Below are positions 14,415 to 26,333 of a DNA stretch of 53,198 nt, piece after piece. Position numbers and translations under genes: made by a program. The notes under the pieces are model-generated. The model was not told the origin of the DNA. It saw only the letters and a list, made by a program, of their open reading frames with translations, and did no database searches. The stretch is from Anaerolineaceae bacterium. GTDB lineage: Bacteria; Chloroflexota; Anaerolineae; Anaerolineales; Villigracilaceae. The stretch's first letter is position 1. Every line of letters starts with the position of its first letter. The DNA lies in contig VFJR01000051.1 in assembly GCA_009885945.1 (NCBI GenBank), positions 1 through 53,198 of the forward strand. The letters are read 5' to 3'.

Positions 14415-14439
14415 TAGGTCGGATTGCCAATCCGACCTA
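14415..14439. repeat. Perfect 11-bp palindrome with 3-base loop
   Basis: Arms TAGGTCGGATT (14415-14425) and AATCCGACCTA (14429-14439) surround the loop GCC. A compact GC-rich palindrome in an intergenic gap fits a REP-type repeat. Confidence 0.65.
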
Positions 14440-18257: not shown

Positions 18258-20567
18258 TTAATCTTGTTGTAATTGAACCATCAATTGGCGGTAATCCTGC
18301 ACATTGGGCGGGTTCATTAATACGATTTGATTGATGACCTCGAGCGCGTCTTTCTTTTTTCCTTCTGTGACGAGCATTTCTCCAAGCGCGTCCAGCTGTG
18401 TAATGGCTTCATTGGTTCTGCCGGCGCGATGCAGTTGTTCGGCAAGCACACGCTTGAGTATGGGCTGATCATCCTGATCCTTTACCAAATCTTCAAGGAA
18501 GCTAATAGCTACTGCGGCTTTATTGTTTGTTTGCAAGAAGGTGATGAAATTGTCGAGTTCGCTTAAAGCTTGCGGATGCTGTGCCATGCGCAGGTTAAGT
18601 TCAATGATTTGTTTGCGTACGCCACTGTCGTCTGGGCGCAGGGTGCGCACTTGCTCAAAGACGCGCAGGGCTTGTTTCCAATCTAAGCGCTGCATGTCAA
18701 TATCTGCCATGCGCTGGAGGATATGTACATTCCAGTCACGGTTAGCATTTCCCTGCTGAATGACGCGCAAGGCAGTTGTATAAGTTTTTCGCGACATGTC
18801 TAATTCTGCCAGGCGGTAATAAATATCAGCCAGCTCAACATATTCGTGAACTGCGTCATCTGCCTGACCTTTGGCGAGCAGAGTTTCGATCAAGCGATTG
18901 CGGGCACTCAAGTCCATGGGCGAGAGTTGAATAATGCGGCGTAGAAGTTTGGTAGATTGATTGACTTCGCCGCGCACCCCATATGCATGAGCAACAACGC
19001 CATACTTTGTGATGGCATCTGTAGTGCGTCCATCCTGAACTAATAAATCGCCCATCAGGCTGTGCAAGGGCAGGTAGGTGGGCGCAAACTGAATCGCGCC
19101 ATAGGCTTCGTCCATCGCTGTGCGTAGACTGCCCATGCGCGCTAACTGATTAATACGGTTGATAGACTCAAGCACAGAACTGGATTGTGCCTGCAAAATC
19201 ACATCTGCTAGAGGCGCCAGCATATTACCTTCCTGCTTGGGCATTTGTTCGCGGGTCTTATGTAATTGCTCGCGCCAATCTGCGCGCATCAACAGCGTGC
19301 TGACATTGTCGCATAATTGTTTTAAAACCTTTTCATCTTTTTGGTTTTGATGCGATTCAAGCAACGGCTCATACTGTTGAAGAATTTCATCTGCTTGTTC
19401 AGTCGGCACGGTCATTGAATCTGCCAGTTTGAGGGCTTCCAAATAATCCAAGCCTGCGGCTGAAAGCGCGTTTTTCTTTAATGAGATTTGCGCAAGCAAT
19501 AAGCGCGTAGCAAGTGCATAATCGATATGTTTGATAGAGTTTTGCAGAAAGCGCTGTGCGCTTTCCAGCCGATCCCCTTTGAAACGTAACAGACCAAGAT
19601 TAAAGTAAATAGATGGGTGCTTAAAGCCAGCCTCTTGAGCGCGCTCTAATTCTTCTGCGGCTTGCGCGTCATTGCCTTTGGTTTGCGCATCAATGGCTTG
19701 ACCAAGATGTAAAACAACTTTGGTTTGTTCCCCTTGCTGCATAGAAAGCGGACCAGTGCCTTTCATAATAGCAGAAAGACCGCGTCTTTCTTGCGCGCCG
19801 GGGCTTTCGTCAGAATATTCGAAGAGTAGCTCTGCCAGCTGAGAGATCGCCTTTTGGCGTGCCTCAGCTATCGGGTCCATGCCAGAAGCGGTCTTCTTCG
19901 GCTGATTTAATTGCTTGACCTTCGCCATCATAATGGGACCTGTGCCGCCTTTTCCGCGTACAGGTTTAGGCAGCAATTGCCCGCTCTTTAATAATGTAGA
20001 AGCTTGCTTTGCCTCGGGGCTGTTGGGCATGATCTGCAAAGCTTTATTAATTAATTCCTGTGTTTTTTCGGCATTGCCAGAACGCTGTAACAAACTTGCC
20101 ACTGCCAGGTACTCAATGACTGCTTGTGAGGTTTGACCTAATTTTTCGTGAACCATTGCCAGCCGTGAATGTGCAATCGCGTGTTCTGGATTTAAATTGA
20201 TCACACGCACCCAGCACTCAATGGCTTTGTCGGTATCACGTTGATTCATAAATAATTCGGCGGCTCTCAGTGAAGCGTTGACGGCTTCTTGCAGATTGCC
20301 AAGTCTTTCGCAAAGCTGAGCTACTTTTTCTAACGGTACAGGGTCATCAGCCGTCAATTTGGTGACATGAATATAAGTTTGCAAGGCATCCTCATAGAGA
20401 CCTTGTTGATACAATGCCAGCCCCAAACTATTCAAGGCTTTGGGTTGATCTGGAACTTCTTGCAAGGCTCTGCGATAGGCATTGACAGCTTTGCCCCAAT
20501 CCTGATCCCAGGCGGCAGAGTGTCCATCATTCATTGCTTTTAGGAAGTTATCTTCTTTTGAAGGCAT
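18258..20567 (-). CDS. Large TPR-repeat protein
   Basis: A 769-residue protein made almost wholly of tetratricopeptide repeats, with no signal peptide or membrane helix. Repeat units are clear near residues 20-190 (for example ALNSLGLALYQQGLYEDALQ and AIAHSRLAMVHEKLGQTSQA), after a low-complexity linker (~195-240), and again through ~260-380 and ~480-769 (SLMGDLLVQDGRTTDAITKY). TPR arrays form protein-binding superhelices, so a cytoplasmic scaffold or assembly role is likely. The partner is unknown. The gene lies 30 bases downstream of polA on the same strand and ends at a good terminator, so it may be co-transcribed with polA. Confidence 0.85.
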   Translation of the reverse strand: MPSKEDNFLKAMNDGHSAAWDQDWGKAVNAYRRALQEVPDQPKALNSLGLALYQQGLYEDALQTYIHVTKLTADDPVPLEKVAQLCERLGNLQEAVNASLRAAELFMNQRDTDKAIECWVRVINLNPEHAIAHSRLAMVHEKLGQTSQAVIEYLAVASLLQRSGNAEKTQELINKALQIMPNSPEAKQASTLLKSGQLLPKPVRGKGGTGPIMMAKVKQLNQPKKTASGMDPIAEARQKAISQLAELLFEYSDESPGAQERRGLSAIMKGTGPLSMQQGEQTKVVLHLGQAIDAQTKGNDAQAAEELERAQEAGFKHPSIYFNLGLLRFKGDRLESAQRFLQNSIKHIDYALATRLLLAQISLKKNALSAAGLDYLEALKLADSMTVPTEQADEILQQYEPLLESHQNQKDEKVLKQLCDNVSTLLMRADWREQLHKTREQMPKQEGNMLAPLADVILQAQSSSVLESINRINQLARMGSLRTAMDEAYGAIQFAPTYLPLHSLMGDLLVQDGRTTDAITKYGVVAHAYGVRGEVNQSTKLLRRIIQLSPMDLSARNRLIETLLAKGQADDAVHEYVELADIYYRLAELDMSRKTYTTALRVIQQGNANRDWNVHILQRMADIDMQRLDWKQALRVFEQVRTLRPDDSGVRKQIIELNLRMAQHPQALSELDNFITFLQTNNKAAVAISFLEDLVKDQDDQPILKRVLAEQLHRAGRTNEAITQLDALGEMLVTEGKKKDALEVINQIVLMNPPNVQDYRQLMVQLQQD

Positions 20568-20597: not shown

Positions 20598-23387
20598 TTA
20601 TAGGGATTTCATCTCGCCCCAATTTGCGCCAGCGCGCGCTTCTGTGGAGAGGGGGATACTCATTGGATATGCATTTGCCATGGTTTCTTGAATGAGACGC
20701 GCAGTATCTGCCGCCTCGCTTTGGGGACATTCAATTACCAATTCATCATGAACTTGTAAAAGCATTTTGCCTTTTAAGCCAGCGGCTTTTAATGCGGCGG
20801 GAATTTTTAACATCGCAATTTTCATAATATCTGCGGCTGTGCCTTGAATGGGCGCGTTGATGGCTTCACGTTCTTCGCGGTTTTTCATTTGTGGATTGCT
20901 CTTGCCTTGCAAGGCGGGGAAATATCTGCGCCGCCCAAGCAATGTTTCTACATAGCCTTGTTCTGCGGCTGTTTTGCGAATGCCGTCTAAATATTTTTTC
21001 ACCCCAGGAAATTTTGCAAAATATGCTTTCACAAAATCTTCAGCCTCCGCCAGCGTGAGGTCTGTGGAACGCATTAAGCCAAATGCCGACATGCCGTAGA
21101 TCAGCCCAAAGTTGATCGCCTTCGCGTGGCGTCTCATATCTTTTGTAACCGCTTCATTTTCGATGCCGTAAATTGCTCCTGCCGTCGTGGAGTGGATATC
21201 TTCGCCTGAGCGAAAAGCGGTCAGCATGGCTTCATCCTCTGCCATCAGCGCCACAATGCGTAATTCTATTTGCGAATAATCTATTGAAAGCAAGACATTG
21301 CCCTTTGCGGCAATAAACCCATTACGCACTTTGCGCCCTGTTTCAGTGCGGATGGGGATATTTTGCAAATTAGGATTATTCGAAGATAATCTGCCAGTCA
21401 CAGCGCCAATCTGACTATAGGATGTATGCACACGTCCAGTTTTAGAATCTACGGCTTCTGGCAGAGCGTCCAAATAGGTTGATTTAAGTTTTGAAAGTTC
21501 ACGGTGTTCCAAGACCCAATCTACAACCGGGTGCTTGCCTCTCAATCCATCCAGCACATCTGCCGAGGTGGAGTAATGACCGCTGGCGGTTTTCTTACCT
21601 TTATCGGGCGGGTCTAATCGCAGGCGGGTAAATAAAATATCTGAGAGTTGTTGTGTGGAATTCATGTTGAATTCTTTGCCAACCGACTCGAAAACTTGTT
21701 TTTGAATCTCTGCCAATCTTTCTGCCAACTCACCAGACATCTTTTTGAAGAAAGGCAGATCGATCATTACGCCTTCCATTTCCATCTCTGCTAATACAGG
21801 CGTGAGCGGCATATCAATTTCTGCGAGAATTTTTTCGCCAGCGATTCGTTTAAGATCTTTCTCCAATAAGGGCACAAGCCGTAGGGTGATCTCGGCATCA
21901 GCGGCGGCGTATGGGGCGACAGATGCAATAGCGACATCTGCCATACTGATTTGTTTTTTGCCTGAGCCAATCAAATCTTCGATATGCGTCATTTCTTCAC
22001 CGAGACGTACCACGGCAAGATTCTTTAATCCCAAGTGACGTGAAGATGGATCTACAATGAACTCTGCCAGCATGGTGTCGAAGGTCAGCGGGCTGACTCT
22101 TAATCCGTGTTTTGCCAGCATAATAAAATCATATTTGGCGTTATGCGCTACTTTGCCAATCTTTAGATCGGTGAGCGGTGCACGCAAGGCTTGCAGAACT
22201 TCATCTAGCGGCAGGTTATCTCCGCTGTGATGCCCGACGGGGATGTAATATCCTTGACCTTCTTTTACAGCCAATGAAATACCAACGATCTCTGCGCGCA
22301 TTTCTTCCGTGGATGTTGTTTCAGTATCAAATGAAATGAGACTTGATTTATTTAACTCTTTAACCAATGCAGAGAGTTTTTCACTGCTATCCACAATGAC
22401 CACTTCAATGTTCACTGTGGTCTTGGGCGCGGCAATCACTTGCGGTTCATTTGCAAACATGGACATTTGCGCGCCAGATTTGGCAGGAACTTCTATTTCA
22501 ATGGAGGCTGTTTTGCCTGTTATTTTTTCCAGCGACTTGATCAATGTGCGAAACTCAAGCTCTTTGAAAAAAGCTTCCACTAGGGCTGGGTCAAAATCGC
22601 GCGATTTTGCTTTTTCCAGATCAAACTCAATTTCCAGATCTGTTTTAATTTGGGCAAGTTCGCGGCTCATATACGCTGATTCTTTGCCGGCTTCTAGTTT
22701 TGTTTTCCAGCGCGGTTCAACTTTATCTATGTTCTCGTAAATTTTGTCGAGGGTTTCAAATTTTTCCAATAGGTAGATGGCTGTCTTTTCACCGACGCCG
22801 GGTACACCGGGAATGTTGTCAGATTTATCGCCGACGATGGCTTTGTAATCTACCACTTGATTGGGACGCACGCCTAATTTTTTGATGACATCTTTATCTG
22901 TGATGTAATTTTGGTCATCGCCAGCCAGATAGACAGCGGTGCGTTTGTTGACTAGCTGTAACAGGTCACGGTCGCCGGTGATGATCTTTACGCCTAAGCC
23001 TTTTTCTGCGGCAACTTTGGCAACGGAACCAAGCACGTCATCTGCTTCAAAGCCGTCCATTTCAAGGCGCGGGATGTTGAAGGCATCTACCATTTCGCGG
23101 ATTCGTTCAATTTGAACGCGCAAATCGTCAGGCATTTTGGCGCGCGTGCCTTTGTAGGCTGGGAAAATCTGGTCGCGGAAGGTTCTGCCAATGTCGAAGG
23201 CGACTGCTAAATATTCAGGGTTTTCCTGTTCCAAAATTCGCATGAGTTCGCGTGCGAATCCATATGTGCCGGCGGTGGGTTCACCTTTAGATGTTTGCCA
23301 ACGTTGGCTGGAGGCTCCCGCAGTTAATGCGAAATACATACGATAGGCTAGGGCGTGTCCGTCTATAAGGTAAAGTGTAGGTGGCAT
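20598..23387 (-). CDS. polA: DNA polymerase I
   Basis: A 929-residue family A polymerase with all three domains. The 5'-3' exonuclease domain (1-~290) begins LYLIDGHALAYRMYFAL and contains DGFEADDVLG and GDKSDNIPGVPGVGEKTA. The 3'-5' proofreading domain (~325-520) keeps its carboxylates: DTE at 354-356, then HNAKYD and YAAADAE. Polymerase motif A is LSIDYSQIELRI, motif B RRHAKAINFGLIYGMS and motif C LQVHDELVIE. It fills Okazaki gaps and acts in excision repair. It lies between the receiver-roadblock fusion gene (upstream) and the TPR gene (downstream). Confidence 0.97.
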   Translation of the reverse strand: MPPTLYLIDGHALAYRMYFALTAGASSQRWQTSKGEPTAGTYGFARELMRILEQENPEYLAVAFDIGRTFRDQIFPAYKGTRAKMPDDLRVQIERIREMVDAFNIPRLEMDGFEADDVLGSVAKVAAEKGLGVKIITGDRDLLQLVNKRTAVYLAGDDQNYITDKDVIKKLGVRPNQVVDYKAIVGDKSDNIPGVPGVGEKTAIYLLEKFETLDKIYENIDKVEPRWKTKLEAGKESAYMSRELAQIKTDLEIEFDLEKAKSRDFDPALVEAFFKELEFRTLIKSLEKITGKTASIEIEVPAKSGAQMSMFANEPQVIAAPKTTVNIEVVIVDSSEKLSALVKELNKSSLISFDTETTSTEEMRAEIVGISLAVKEGQGYYIPVGHHSGDNLPLDEVLQALRAPLTDLKIGKVAHNAKYDFIMLAKHGLRVSPLTFDTMLAEFIVDPSSRHLGLKNLAVVRLGEEMTHIEDLIGSGKKQISMADVAIASVAPYAAADAEITLRLVPLLEKDLKRIAGEKILAEIDMPLTPVLAEMEMEGVMIDLPFFKKMSGELAERLAEIQKQVFESVGKEFNMNSTQQLSDILFTRLRLDPPDKGKKTASGHYSTSADVLDGLRGKHPVVDWVLEHRELSKLKSTYLDALPEAVDSKTGRVHTSYSQIGAVTGRLSSNNPNLQNIPIRTETGRKVRNGFIAAKGNVLLSIDYSQIELRIVALMAEDEAMLTAFRSGEDIHSTTAGAIYGIENEAVTKDMRRHAKAINFGLIYGMSAFGLMRSTDLTLAEAEDFVKAYFAKFPGVKKYLDGIRKTAAEQGYVETLLGRRRYFPALQGKSNPQMKNREEREAINAPIQGTAADIMKIAMLKIPAALKAAGLKGKMLLQVHDELVIECPQSEAADTARLIQETMANAYPMSIPLSTEARAGANWGEMKSL

Positions 23388-23437: not shown

Positions 23438-23485
23438 TAATAAATAAAAGCGCAGAGCAATTATACTCTGCGCTTTTATTTATTA
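23438..23485 (-). terminator. Hairpin with perfect 20-bp arms upstream of polA
   Basis: Arms 23438-23457 and 23466-23485 are exact reverse complements around an 8-base loop. The core is GCGCAGAG and the flanks are A/T. It lies between the fusion gene stop (23604) and the polA start (23387), so it should end the fusion transcript. A small CAACAG/CTGTTG hairpin follows at 23411-23426. Confidence 0.75.
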
Positions 23486-23603: not shown

Positions 23604-25223
23604 TTATCTACGAGGATTTTCAATGCCCTGGCGTTCACGTGTCTCGCGAATGTAGTCTTTGACAAGTTGAGCTGGGTGCGGTTGGTTGCCGCCCATGATC
23701 AGGTAACCGGGCGCCCAAAAGTCGCCGGATGGATTTTCTTTTTTGAAGCGTGCAATTTCTGCGAATATCTTTTCGGATGTTTGCTGGCGCATGATGCGCA
23801 TTAAATGTCCGGGGGATGTGTTGGGTTGAACATTCACGACCCATTGAACATATTCTGGTCTGACCGCTAAATGTTCCAATCTCCAGCCGAAGGCTACACA
23901 AATATTAGGCATCCAGTCGCTGATGTAATTGGCGAGGTCGCCGACGATGGCGTGAGAGACAAAACGAGGTACTAATAAACAGGCGTACGCCAGATGGTAC
24001 AGCCCGGCGGTAACAGGTTCAAGTTTTAGGCTGCGTTTTGCTTCGGTGGTAGGGGTTGGGCGCGTCTCAGCTTGTTCGCCCTCTTTGGGAGTGGCGAGTG
24101 GGGTGAGCGGGCGTTGCTTTGGCGGTGCAGGTGCAGTGACATCTATACCGTTAATGGATATTTCTGGTTCTTCTGCTGGGTTGTTGACATTCGCTGGGTT
24201 GCTGGTTAAGCGGACAGCCGGTGATTGCTCGCGGCTGAATACAGTTGCGCGTGAGAGGGATGGGGCTTGGCGGGTTTCGCCGTCAGCGGGGAGAGAGGCT
24301 GTTTGGCTGCGAATCAGGCTTGAGCTGGATGATGAAGCGGATGGGTTTGGAATCGGTATATCTTTTAGGATATCGGTAATGTGCGGGATTTCCAAATCAT
24401 CATTTTCGTCATCATCTTCATATTGATCTTTGGCGGCTACAACAAATTGCGGAGTTGGCTTTTTTACGGCAGGCGCGGATTGTTGTGGTTCTGCTGTTGG
24501 TTCGAGCGAGGTCATGAGTTTACTGGCTTGTGAGCGAATGGTACTGAAGGGTGTTTCTGCATCGAAGACGAGCGCCAAAATAGTTCCTTCTAAAAGGAAA
24601 GTTGCATAGAGCATGTGTTCGGCGCGGGTGCTTTCGAGGCGAATGAAGCGCAGTAAGTCGCTTCCTTTTTGGCTGTCCCAGGTGCGAGAAACAGTTTGCG
24701 CAACTTCTTTTGCGGCTTCTTGTGAAAGCCCGCCCGCGTATGCCCAAAGCTCATTATTGCGTGTGATGAGGGCGGCTTGCGCAGAGGATCCTAAAGTGAT
24801 GCGCGTGAGCTGTTGCGCGGCTTTGGATGCATCACCAAGCCAAGCAAGATCTGCGACGGGGAGGACTTGATTTTCTTGCGGATTTTTTATCATTTTTATG
24901 ATCTCGGTTATATGAAAAGGTTTACGGACGAGCGCCCAAGGGCGGATGGCGTCTAATGCGGGCGGGGTTTCGTCTCCGCATAAAACGAAAAGGTTAATGG
25001 TAGGCTTGATGGTTCGTAGTGATTTTGCAATTTCGGTTACGTTCTTTTCACCAAGTTCCAAATCAAGAAATACCATTTCGCTGGATTCTTCATCTGCGCG
25101 GACGACTGCTTCTGATCTGTTGCGAGCAACGTGTACTGTGTAACTTCCGCTTTGCTCAAGAGATTTGCGGAGCATATCCCCAAGTGAGGGGGTAGGTGTA
25201 ACTACAAGTAAACTTGCGCTCAT
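23604..25223 (-). CDS. Receiver-like + roadblock/LC7-like + IS200/REP-transposase-like fusion protein
   Basis: A 539-residue protein with three parts. Residues 1-~113 are a CheY-like receiver: D54 in VFLDLEL is the phospho-acceptor position and K101 in VRKPF the conserved lysine. Residues ~125-240 look like a roadblock/LC7 domain (AALITRNNELWAYAGGLSQE and a strand LEGTILALVFD). Residues ~241-400 are a Pro/Ser/acidic linker. Residues ~401-539 match the IS200/TnpA-REP (Y1) transposase fold: LYHLAYACLLVPRF at the start and FWAPGYLIM then VKDYIRE at the end. The HUH position (usually DHVH) reads EYVQ (457-460), so metal binding should be lost, while the catalytic-type tyrosine Y524 remains. It is probably a signalling protein, not an active transposase. 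The transposase-like assignment is from motif spacing and needs a profile search. Confidence 0.75.
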   Translation of the reverse strand: MSASLLVVTPTPSLGDMLRKSLEQSGSYTVHVARNRSEAVVRADEESSEMVFLDLELGEKNVTEIAKSLRTIKPTINLFVLCGDETPPALDAIRPWALVRKPFHITEIIKMIKNPQENQVLPVADLAWLGDASKAAQQLTRITLGSSAQAALITRNNELWAYAGGLSQEAAKEVAQTVSRTWDSQKGSDLLRFIRLESTRAEHMLYATFLLEGTILALVFDAETPFSTIRSQASKLMTSLEPTAEPQQSAPAVKKPTPQFVVAAKDQYEDDDENDDLEIPHITDILKDIPIPNPSASSSSSSLIRSQTASLPADGETRQAPSLSRATVFSREQSPAVRLTSNPANVNNPAEEPEISINGIDVTAPAPPKQRPLTPLATPKEGEQAETRPTPTTEAKRSLKLEPVTAGLYHLAYACLLVPRFVSHAIVGDLANYISDWMPNICVAFGWRLEHLAVRPEYVQWVVNVQPNTSPGHLMRIMRQQTSEKIFAEIARFKKENPSGDFWAPGYLIMGGNQPHPAQLVKDYIRETRERQGIENPRR

Positions 25224-25441: not shown

Positions 25442-26275
25442 ATGCACCGAGAAAGAGTTTCTGAAAATGTTTATTGGTTCCAAAGTGAAGTGTACGCGCA
25501 GGTAACGGCTGGTGTGATTGCGGGTCCGCAATGGGCAGTGGTGATCGATACACTGGCTTTGCCGGATGAAACGCAAGGGATGCGTGAGTTCATTGAACAT
25601 GAATTAAATGTGCCGGTGCGCTATGTGATCAATACGCATTATCATGCCGACCATGCCTGGGGAAATTGTTTTTTTCCGGGCGCGATCGTGGTGGCTCATC
25701 AACATTGCCGTGAATTATTGGACACCTTGGGCACGCCGTCGCTGGAAACCGCGCGCAAAAGTAACCCAGCTTTGAAACAGGTGAAGCTCGTTCTGCCGCA
25801 CATGACATTTGATTCCGGTGAATTAACTTTACGAGTGGGCAAGAAGAATTTGATCTTGAGTTCTGCCACGGGGCACAGTGATGACGGAATCGCTGTTTTG
25901 GTGGAAGAAGACCGTGTTTTATTTGCAGGGGATTCTTTTATGTCACTGCCTTATATTGTGGACGGCGACTTGGACGAAATGTCTGCTTCGGTGAAGCGGA
26001 TCGGGCGCATGGGCTTGGAGAATATTATTCAAGGTCATGGTGATATTGTTTTGCGCGGTGAAATTGACGCGGCTGTGAAGGAAAACCTTAACTACCTAAC
26101 CAATATCAAAAAGTCTATTAAAGCCATTGCTAAAAAGAAAAATGCAGATGAATTATTGGATGAGATCACTGTGGAAAGCTGCGGCAAAAGCCGTGTGCAC
26201 CTGGGCGGGTTAGCACCGATGCTGCATCAACGTAATTTAAGAGCGTTGTTGAATCAGGCGCGGGATGTGGAATAA
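25442..26275 (+). CDS. Metallo-beta-lactamase-fold hydrolase
   Basis: A 277-residue MBL-fold protein. The metal motif THYHADHAWGN (H66, H68, D70, H71) is intact, and later ligands are in TGHSDDG, FAGDSF and IQGHGDI. This gives a typical dinuclear site. The family covers glyoxalase II-like, lactonase, beta-lactamase B3-like and other hydrolases; the substrate cannot be chosen. A GAGGA ribosome site precedes the ATG. The gene is divergent from the receiver-roadblock fusion and shares a 218-base gap with it. Its stop codon lies inside the left arm of a perfect hairpin shared with plsY. Confidence 0.88.
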   Translation: MHRERVSENVYWFQSEVYAQVTAGVIAGPQWAVVIDTLALPDETQGMREFIEHELNVPVRYVINTHYHADHAWGNCFFPGAIVVAHQHCRELLDTLGTPSLETARKSNPALKQVKLVLPHMTFDSGELTLRVGKKNLILSSATGHSDDGIAVLVEEDRVLFAGDSFMSLPYIVDGDLDEMSASVKRIGRMGLENIIQGHGDIVLRGEIDAAVKENLNYLTNIKKSIKAIAKKKNADELLDEITVESCGKSRVHLGGLAPMLHQRNLRALLNQARDVE

Positions 26276-26333
26276 ATTTCAAGAATAAAAAATCTCATCA
26301 CTAAGATGAGATTTTTTATTCTTGAAATTTATT
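26271..26333. terminator. Bidirectional terminator with perfect 29-bp arms that include both stop codons
   Basis: Arms 26271-26299 and 26305-26333 are exact reverse complements around the 5-base loop ACTAA. The centre is ATCTCATC/GATGAGAT, flanked by A/T tracts giving T-runs in both directions. The TAA of the MBL gene (26273-26275) and of plsY (26329-26331, minus strand) are both inside the stem. Confidence 0.85.

Follow-up and report, generated by a model that had tools for sequence, protein, structure and literature searches.

A TnpA (Y1) transposase domain of the IS200/IS605 type that has lost its catalytic residues is conserved in Anaerolineae as the C-terminal part of a receiver-roadblock protein, whose gene lies at a fixed place before polA. 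We describe this protein from the 53,198-nucleotide stretch of an Anaerolineaceae (Villigracilaceae) genome (contig VFJR01000051.1, the whole stretch being referred to as the window), together with its relatives in the host family and in more distant families of the class. The C-terminal domain is referred to below as pseudo-Y1 or pseudo-TnpA, and the whole protein as the fusion protein.

RESULTS

Domain architecture of the fusion protein

The window protein consists of four parts (Table 1). An initial annotation, made from the sequence without database searches, had read it as a receiver and a roadblock domain fused to a domesticated IS200-type transposase without the HUH motif, and this reading of the domains proved right. 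AlphaFold2 modeling on a family alignment placed most of the receiver and roadblock domains at a pLDDT of ~90 or above 90, whereas the Y1 region was weaker in the full-length model and the linker stayed below 50. Mean pairwise identity among 81 proteins was 82.7% for Y1, 76.4% for the roadblock domain, 49.8% for the receiver, and 39.9% for the linker, making Y1 the best-conserved domain of the protein. Amid the variable sequence of the linker, the family consensus contains a conserved motif, IPxIxxILxDIPxPxP (residues ~280 to 294), which may be a docking peptide.

Table 1. Features of the fusion gene and its surroundings in the window
Feature	Position	Strand	Basis or remark
Receiver-roadblock-linker-pseudoTnpA protein, whole gene	23604..25223	-	539 aa, ORF 25223..23604
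Degenerate receiver, aa 1-118	24870..25223	-	PF00072 4e-6, Z 17, residue counts
Roadblock/LC7-like domain, aa 125-241	24501..24851	-	pLDDT, Foldseek, identity
Low-complexity linker, predicted disordered, aa 242-404	24012..24500	-	pLDDT<50, consensus
IS200/TnpA (Y1) domain, predicted catalytically dead, aa 405-531	23631..24011	-	PF01797, Z 16.7 to 2ec2
Y458-V459-Q460 in HUH motif position	23844..23852	-	Alignment with TnpA
Y524, catalytic tyrosine position	23652..23654	-	Residue counts
polA, DNA polymerase I, 5'-3' and 3'-5' exonuclease domains	20598..23387	-	Pfam; directly downstream
769-aa TPR protein, next conserved neighbor past polA	18258..20567	-	Pfam; 53/80 named loci
Perfect 20-bp hairpin, fusion gene/polA gap	23438..23485	.	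Once in genome, A/T-rich ends

The C-terminal domain is a TnpA relative without the HUH motif

In Pfam, Y1_Tnp (PF01797) matched residues 409 to 527 with an E value of 4e-11, at nearly twice the gathering score, and 2.8e-12 for the domain by itself. The NCBIfam IS200 transposase model matched the 539-aa protein at 2.4e-15, and TnpA sequences from the PDB matched the fusion protein with E values down to 6e-9. Folded alone on a 35-row alignment, the domain reached a pLDDT of 93. The top 15 structural matches of this model were all TnpA proteins (Z of 14.2 to 16.7), with scores of 16.7 to 2ec2 from Sulfolobus, 15.9 to ISDra2, and 14.9 to IS608; after TnpA, Z fell to 8.1 (a RAYT), and unrelated folds scored lower. 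Both profile (E of 4e-11) and predicted structure (Z up to 16.7), the comparison with Y1_Tnp that the initial annotation had named as its check, assign the domain to the Y1_Tnp or IS200-IS605 TnpA family by fold and homology.

Alignment with TnpA bore out the observation, made from the sequence alone, that the HUH histidines are replaced (Y458-V-Q460) and that the tyrosine is left (Y524). In none of 119 aligned homologs, comprising fusion and paralog sequences, were both HUH histidines kept. Among the family members, the first histidine is replaced by Tyr in 94/95 and the second by Gln in 92/95, and the metal-binding glutamine, equivalent to Q131 of IS608 TnpA (PMC5934647), is lost in all 95. 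The nucleophilic tyrosine is present in 85 of these 95 and is Phe in nine; Phe also occupies this position in 11 of the 12 distant-family members counted. With both histidines and the metal-binding glutamine lost, DNA cleavage by the Y1 domain is very probably lost as well. The domain has been retained though catalysis is gone, which therefore suggests a new function.

In the host family, the Y1 domain has retained the basic charge typical of TnpA (pI of 8.9 versus 9.5 for TnpA). In distant families it is acidic (median pI of 5.1), and a proteome bias, as seen in PolA (pI of 5.7 versus 5.2), accounts only partly for this. DNA binding throughout the class is therefore not to be assumed.

Palindromic repeats of the genome had been put forward as targets of the domain. 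Among the positions named in the window, 16411 has one inverted-repeat arm pair, and a search at 14415 and 18101 gave no arms of at least 14 nt. No direct-repeat family occurs within the window, its inverted repeats are mutually unrelated, and the hairpin beside the fusion gene is unique in the genome; as far as the window and this one hairpin show, REP-like or other palindromic targets are not supported. A separate perfect inverted repeat of 29 nt with a 5-nt loop, located between convergent genes at 26271-26333, is probably a two-way terminator.

The receiver is degenerate and the middle domain has a roadblock fold

Response_reg (PF00072) matched residues 7 to 112 with an E value of 4e-6, slightly below the Pfam gathering score, and the receiver model reached a Z of 17 to receivers of the CheY/Spo0F type. 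All 95 family members retain the phospho-acceptor D54 and 94 of them K101, so the receiver-like domain recognized earlier by these two residues was confirmed. The acidic Mg2+-binding pair is present in 0/95 members, Cys, Ser, or Ala mostly occupies the Thr/Ser switch position, and several members of the fusion family carry no receiver whatever. Because the acidic pair is lost, the switch position is altered in many members, and some members do without the domain, the phospho-signaling control that had been suggested for the protein appears unlikely in the host family. The receiver is apparently decaying over time, since receiver-roadblock-only relatives, which are without Y1, retain one acidic residue of the pair.

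For the middle domain, the fold of the proposed roadblock/LC7 assignment held and the sequence match did not: the PF03259 profile found no match in the 539-aa window protein or in its middle domain. In the relative L065, PF03259 matched over its full length with an E value of 0.034. Foldseek searches with the roadblock model returned MP1/p14 and MglB matches, including 3cpt (E of 3.8e-6, TM of 0.70) and the MglB structure 6izw. The host genome also encodes a small GTPase and two further roadblock proteins.

The gene is linked to polA

In 105 loci, the fusion gene or a relative without Y1 is immediately followed by polA in the same orientation. Spacing between the two genes is mostly within 200 bp, with 4-bp overlaps in two loci. 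Fifteen loci with room for polA are without it, among them four stand-alone paralogs and one fragment. Distant families show the linkage too; polA and the gene for a TPR protein are the sole recurrent neighbors seen there. Of the 80 named loci, 71 had polA, 53 the TPR gene, and 37 the adjacent gene of the opposite side. Most loci of the class have this TPR protein, 769 aa long in the window, after polA.

In the window, the perfect hairpin lies within a 216-bp gap between the fusion gene and polA, and by its sequence it is probably a terminator. Because this possible terminator separates the two genes, their cotranscription in the window is unsure; a scan of the region for sigma-70-type promoters found nothing. 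Neighborhood with polA is no proof of a shared process.

The fusion occurs throughout the class and points to a single origin

A match was found in 145/152 genomes of the host family, covering 26/26 genera and mostly as one full-length copy. Named records with the fusion protein are metagenome-assembled genomes (MAGs) of Anaerolineales or Anaerolineae. Proteins from other Anaerolineae families show the same domain order, often with longer linkers (468 to 1202 aa). Of 19 distant-family proteins, 18 have a C-terminal domain that matches Y1_Tnp by itself, and profile comparison of the distant-family C termini with the host family gave a probability of 99.5%. One relative of the same order (L061) retains the first HUH histidine (ATHVE), and its second is gone. 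Some families of the class have a receiver-roadblock protein without Y1, encoded directly before polA (L062, L065, L067, and L069).

A tree built from 56 sequences placed every pseudo-Y1 domain in one clade apart from 20 Chloroflexota TnpA proteins (support of 100/99), and the stand-alone paralogs clustered with the host-family fusions. Because they form a single clade apart from the Chloroflexota TnpA proteins, the tree points to one domestication from which all pseudo-Y1 domains stem. Beyond the class, searches of the phylum, in which the weaker matches were inspected in part, gave stand-alone Y1 hits of TnpA size and no fusion; one genome of another class encodes a receiver-roadblock protein away from polA. 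The phages searched gave no match to the fusion, the plasmids searched gave only IS200 tnpA matches (Bifidobacterium), and none of the known defence-system models matches it. Rather than the mobile, multicopy, and patchy spread of a transposon, the gene shows a fixed site before polA and presence in nearly every genome of the host family. It is evidently under strong purifying selection.

Stand-alone paralogs accompany an Mrr-type gene

The host genome additionally encodes a stand-alone pseudo-Y1 paralog of 169 aa (G000:C189). After it come a 156-aa TPR protein remnant and the beginning of a kinase-like open reading frame, at which the contig ends; this locus carries no Mrr-type gene. In relatives, the TPR protein belongs to a cassette with the order pseudo-Y1, Mrr_N/Mrr_cat protein, TPR protein of ~440 aa, 7TM/PAS/GAF histidine kinase, and NarL-type regulator. 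A stand-alone pseudo-Y1 gene lies directly before an Mrr_N/Mrr_cat gene in other genomes of the family (L072, L073, L074, L214, and L215-L231), and only the fuller loci of this set run on into the TPR, 7TM histidine kinase, and NarL-type regulator genes. When the best 20 family matches to the Mrr-type protein were examined, pseudo-Y1 was the gene immediately upstream in 16, within the stretches retrieved, and lay no more than ~1.5 kb away in another 3. The Mrr-type partner matches PADLOC PDC-S02 candidate models only. Together, the genes look like an undescribed DNA-linked signaling or defense cassette. In two genomes (L075 and L076), the paralog is found beside chemoreceptor-like, CheW-like, and flagellar-motor-like genes.

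DISCUSSION

The pseudo-Y1 domain resembles the TnpA proteins of IS200/IS605 elements (IS608, ISDra2, and Sulfolobus 2ec2) in fold (Z of 14 to 17) and over the whole-domain profile. It differs from them in having neither the HUH motif nor the metal-binding glutamine, in a tyrosine that is often Phe, and in being fused to a receiver and a roadblock domain in a core gene that has a fixed place and is not mobile. TnpA-REP proteins, or RAYTs, are likewise TnpA relatives kept by the host (PMC6006769, PMC8266576), but they keep HUH and the tyrosine and go with REP palindromes (PMC6006769), whereas pseudo-TnpA is predicted to be without catalysis and has no REP-like family in the window, where the adjacent hairpin occurs once in the genome. 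A census of Y1 proteins discarded sequences without the HuH/Y motifs as nonfunctional, as well as overlong ones (PMC6006769), so proteins like pseudo-TnpA would be left out of it. TldR, an RNA-guided regulator exapted from TnpB (PMC13418256), also arose from a protein of an IS200/IS605-type element, but its origin is TnpB and it is guided by RNA, whereas the present protein is of TnpA origin and encoded by a class-wide core gene.

The receiver and roadblock proteins of the MglA-MglB-RomR system share with the fusion protein a receiver and a roadblock fold near that of MglB; they differ from it in that the fusion protein ends in pseudo-TnpA and its receiver is without the acidic pair. No mglA was seen in the neighborhood of the fusion gene. 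The Y1-less receiver-roadblock proteins of the class have the same N-terminal domains and the same position before polA, and differ in the missing Y1. Exaptation of TnpB is well known (Cas12 and TldR). Our searches, which covered a mostly open literature, found no description of the fusion or of the exaptation of a dead TnpA; within this literature, a catalytically dead TnpA has no prior description as a vertically inherited host protein.

Our best explanation, which is tentative, is that the protein acts as a non-cutting adaptor, predicted to bind DNA structures and to work with DNA enzymes. A TnpA (Y1) transposase would have been captured once in an ancestor of the Anaerolineae, would have lost DNA cleavage, and would have persisted at the C terminus of a receiver-roadblock protein encoded immediately before polA. 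As a dimer, pseudo-TnpA may still bind DNA that is structured or single stranded, leaving it uncut. The degenerate receiver and the roadblock domain, the latter through dimerization or by way of a small GTPase, would provide docking and regulatory platforms, which would bring DNA enzymes to these DNA structures or hold them back there, presumably Pol I in the case of the fusion and the Mrr-type protein in that of the paralog. The TnpA fold, the basic Y1 of the host family, and the two DNA-enzyme neighborhoods, polA and Mrr, favor such an adaptor; the acidic Y1 of distant families, the paralogs near signaling and motility genes, and the terminator-like hairpin before polA appear to speak against it.

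The main rival is a further possibility that we consider somewhat less probable: Y1 would now be only a module for dimerization or protein docking in a signaling or polarity scaffold that resembles the roadblock/receiver proteins MglB and RomR, and linkage to polA would reflect shared regulation or old gene order. The same acidic Y1 in distant families fits this explanation, as do the resemblance of the roadblock fold to MglB and MP1, the presence in the genome of a small GTPase and of two roadblock proteins besides this one, and the occurrence of paralogs in histidine kinase/response regulator cassettes or near chemotaxis and flagellar genes. It accounts poorly for Y1 being the top-conserved domain and basic in the host family, and for two separate DNA-enzyme neighborhoods. 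Alternatively, the protein could control polA expression by binding mRNA or DNA hairpins at its own locus. Its constant site immediately before polA, the strong hairpin in the gap of the window, and the ability of TnpA folds to bind hairpins (2a6o) would agree with this, but the gaps of many relatives are 3 to 60 bp and leave scant room for a hairpin, the hairpin is known from the window alone, and stand-alone copies are not near polA, making such control improbable.

It is very improbable that the Y1 domain is still a nuclease that uses Tyr524 and an altered metal site (Y458/Q460). The near-invariance of Y458 and Q460 and the frequency of Y524 in the family (85/95) would fit such an enzyme, but both histidines and the metal-binding Gln are gone, and Phe replaces the tyrosine in 9/95 family members and 11/12 distant ones. 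A recent chance fusion or a decaying, functionless transposase remnant, to which membership in a mobile-element domain family and the lost catalytic residues might point, is refuted by conservation: the gene is class-wide, is found in 145/152 host-family genomes, and its dead domain has a mean identity of 82.7%.

Taken as an adaptor, the dead TnpA is suggested to read or organize DNA rather than cut it. Whether it is a general reader of DNA structures plugged into host machines, governing Pol I across Anaerolineae as part of a receiver-roadblock switch and joining an Mrr-type nuclease as a separate subunit under two-component control, we regard as doubtful. That a gene present across the class is linked to polA suggests an unrecognized DNA replication or repair factor in Anaerolineae, and since the dead domain is also paired with an Mrr-type nuclease, its role can be probed in a second system.
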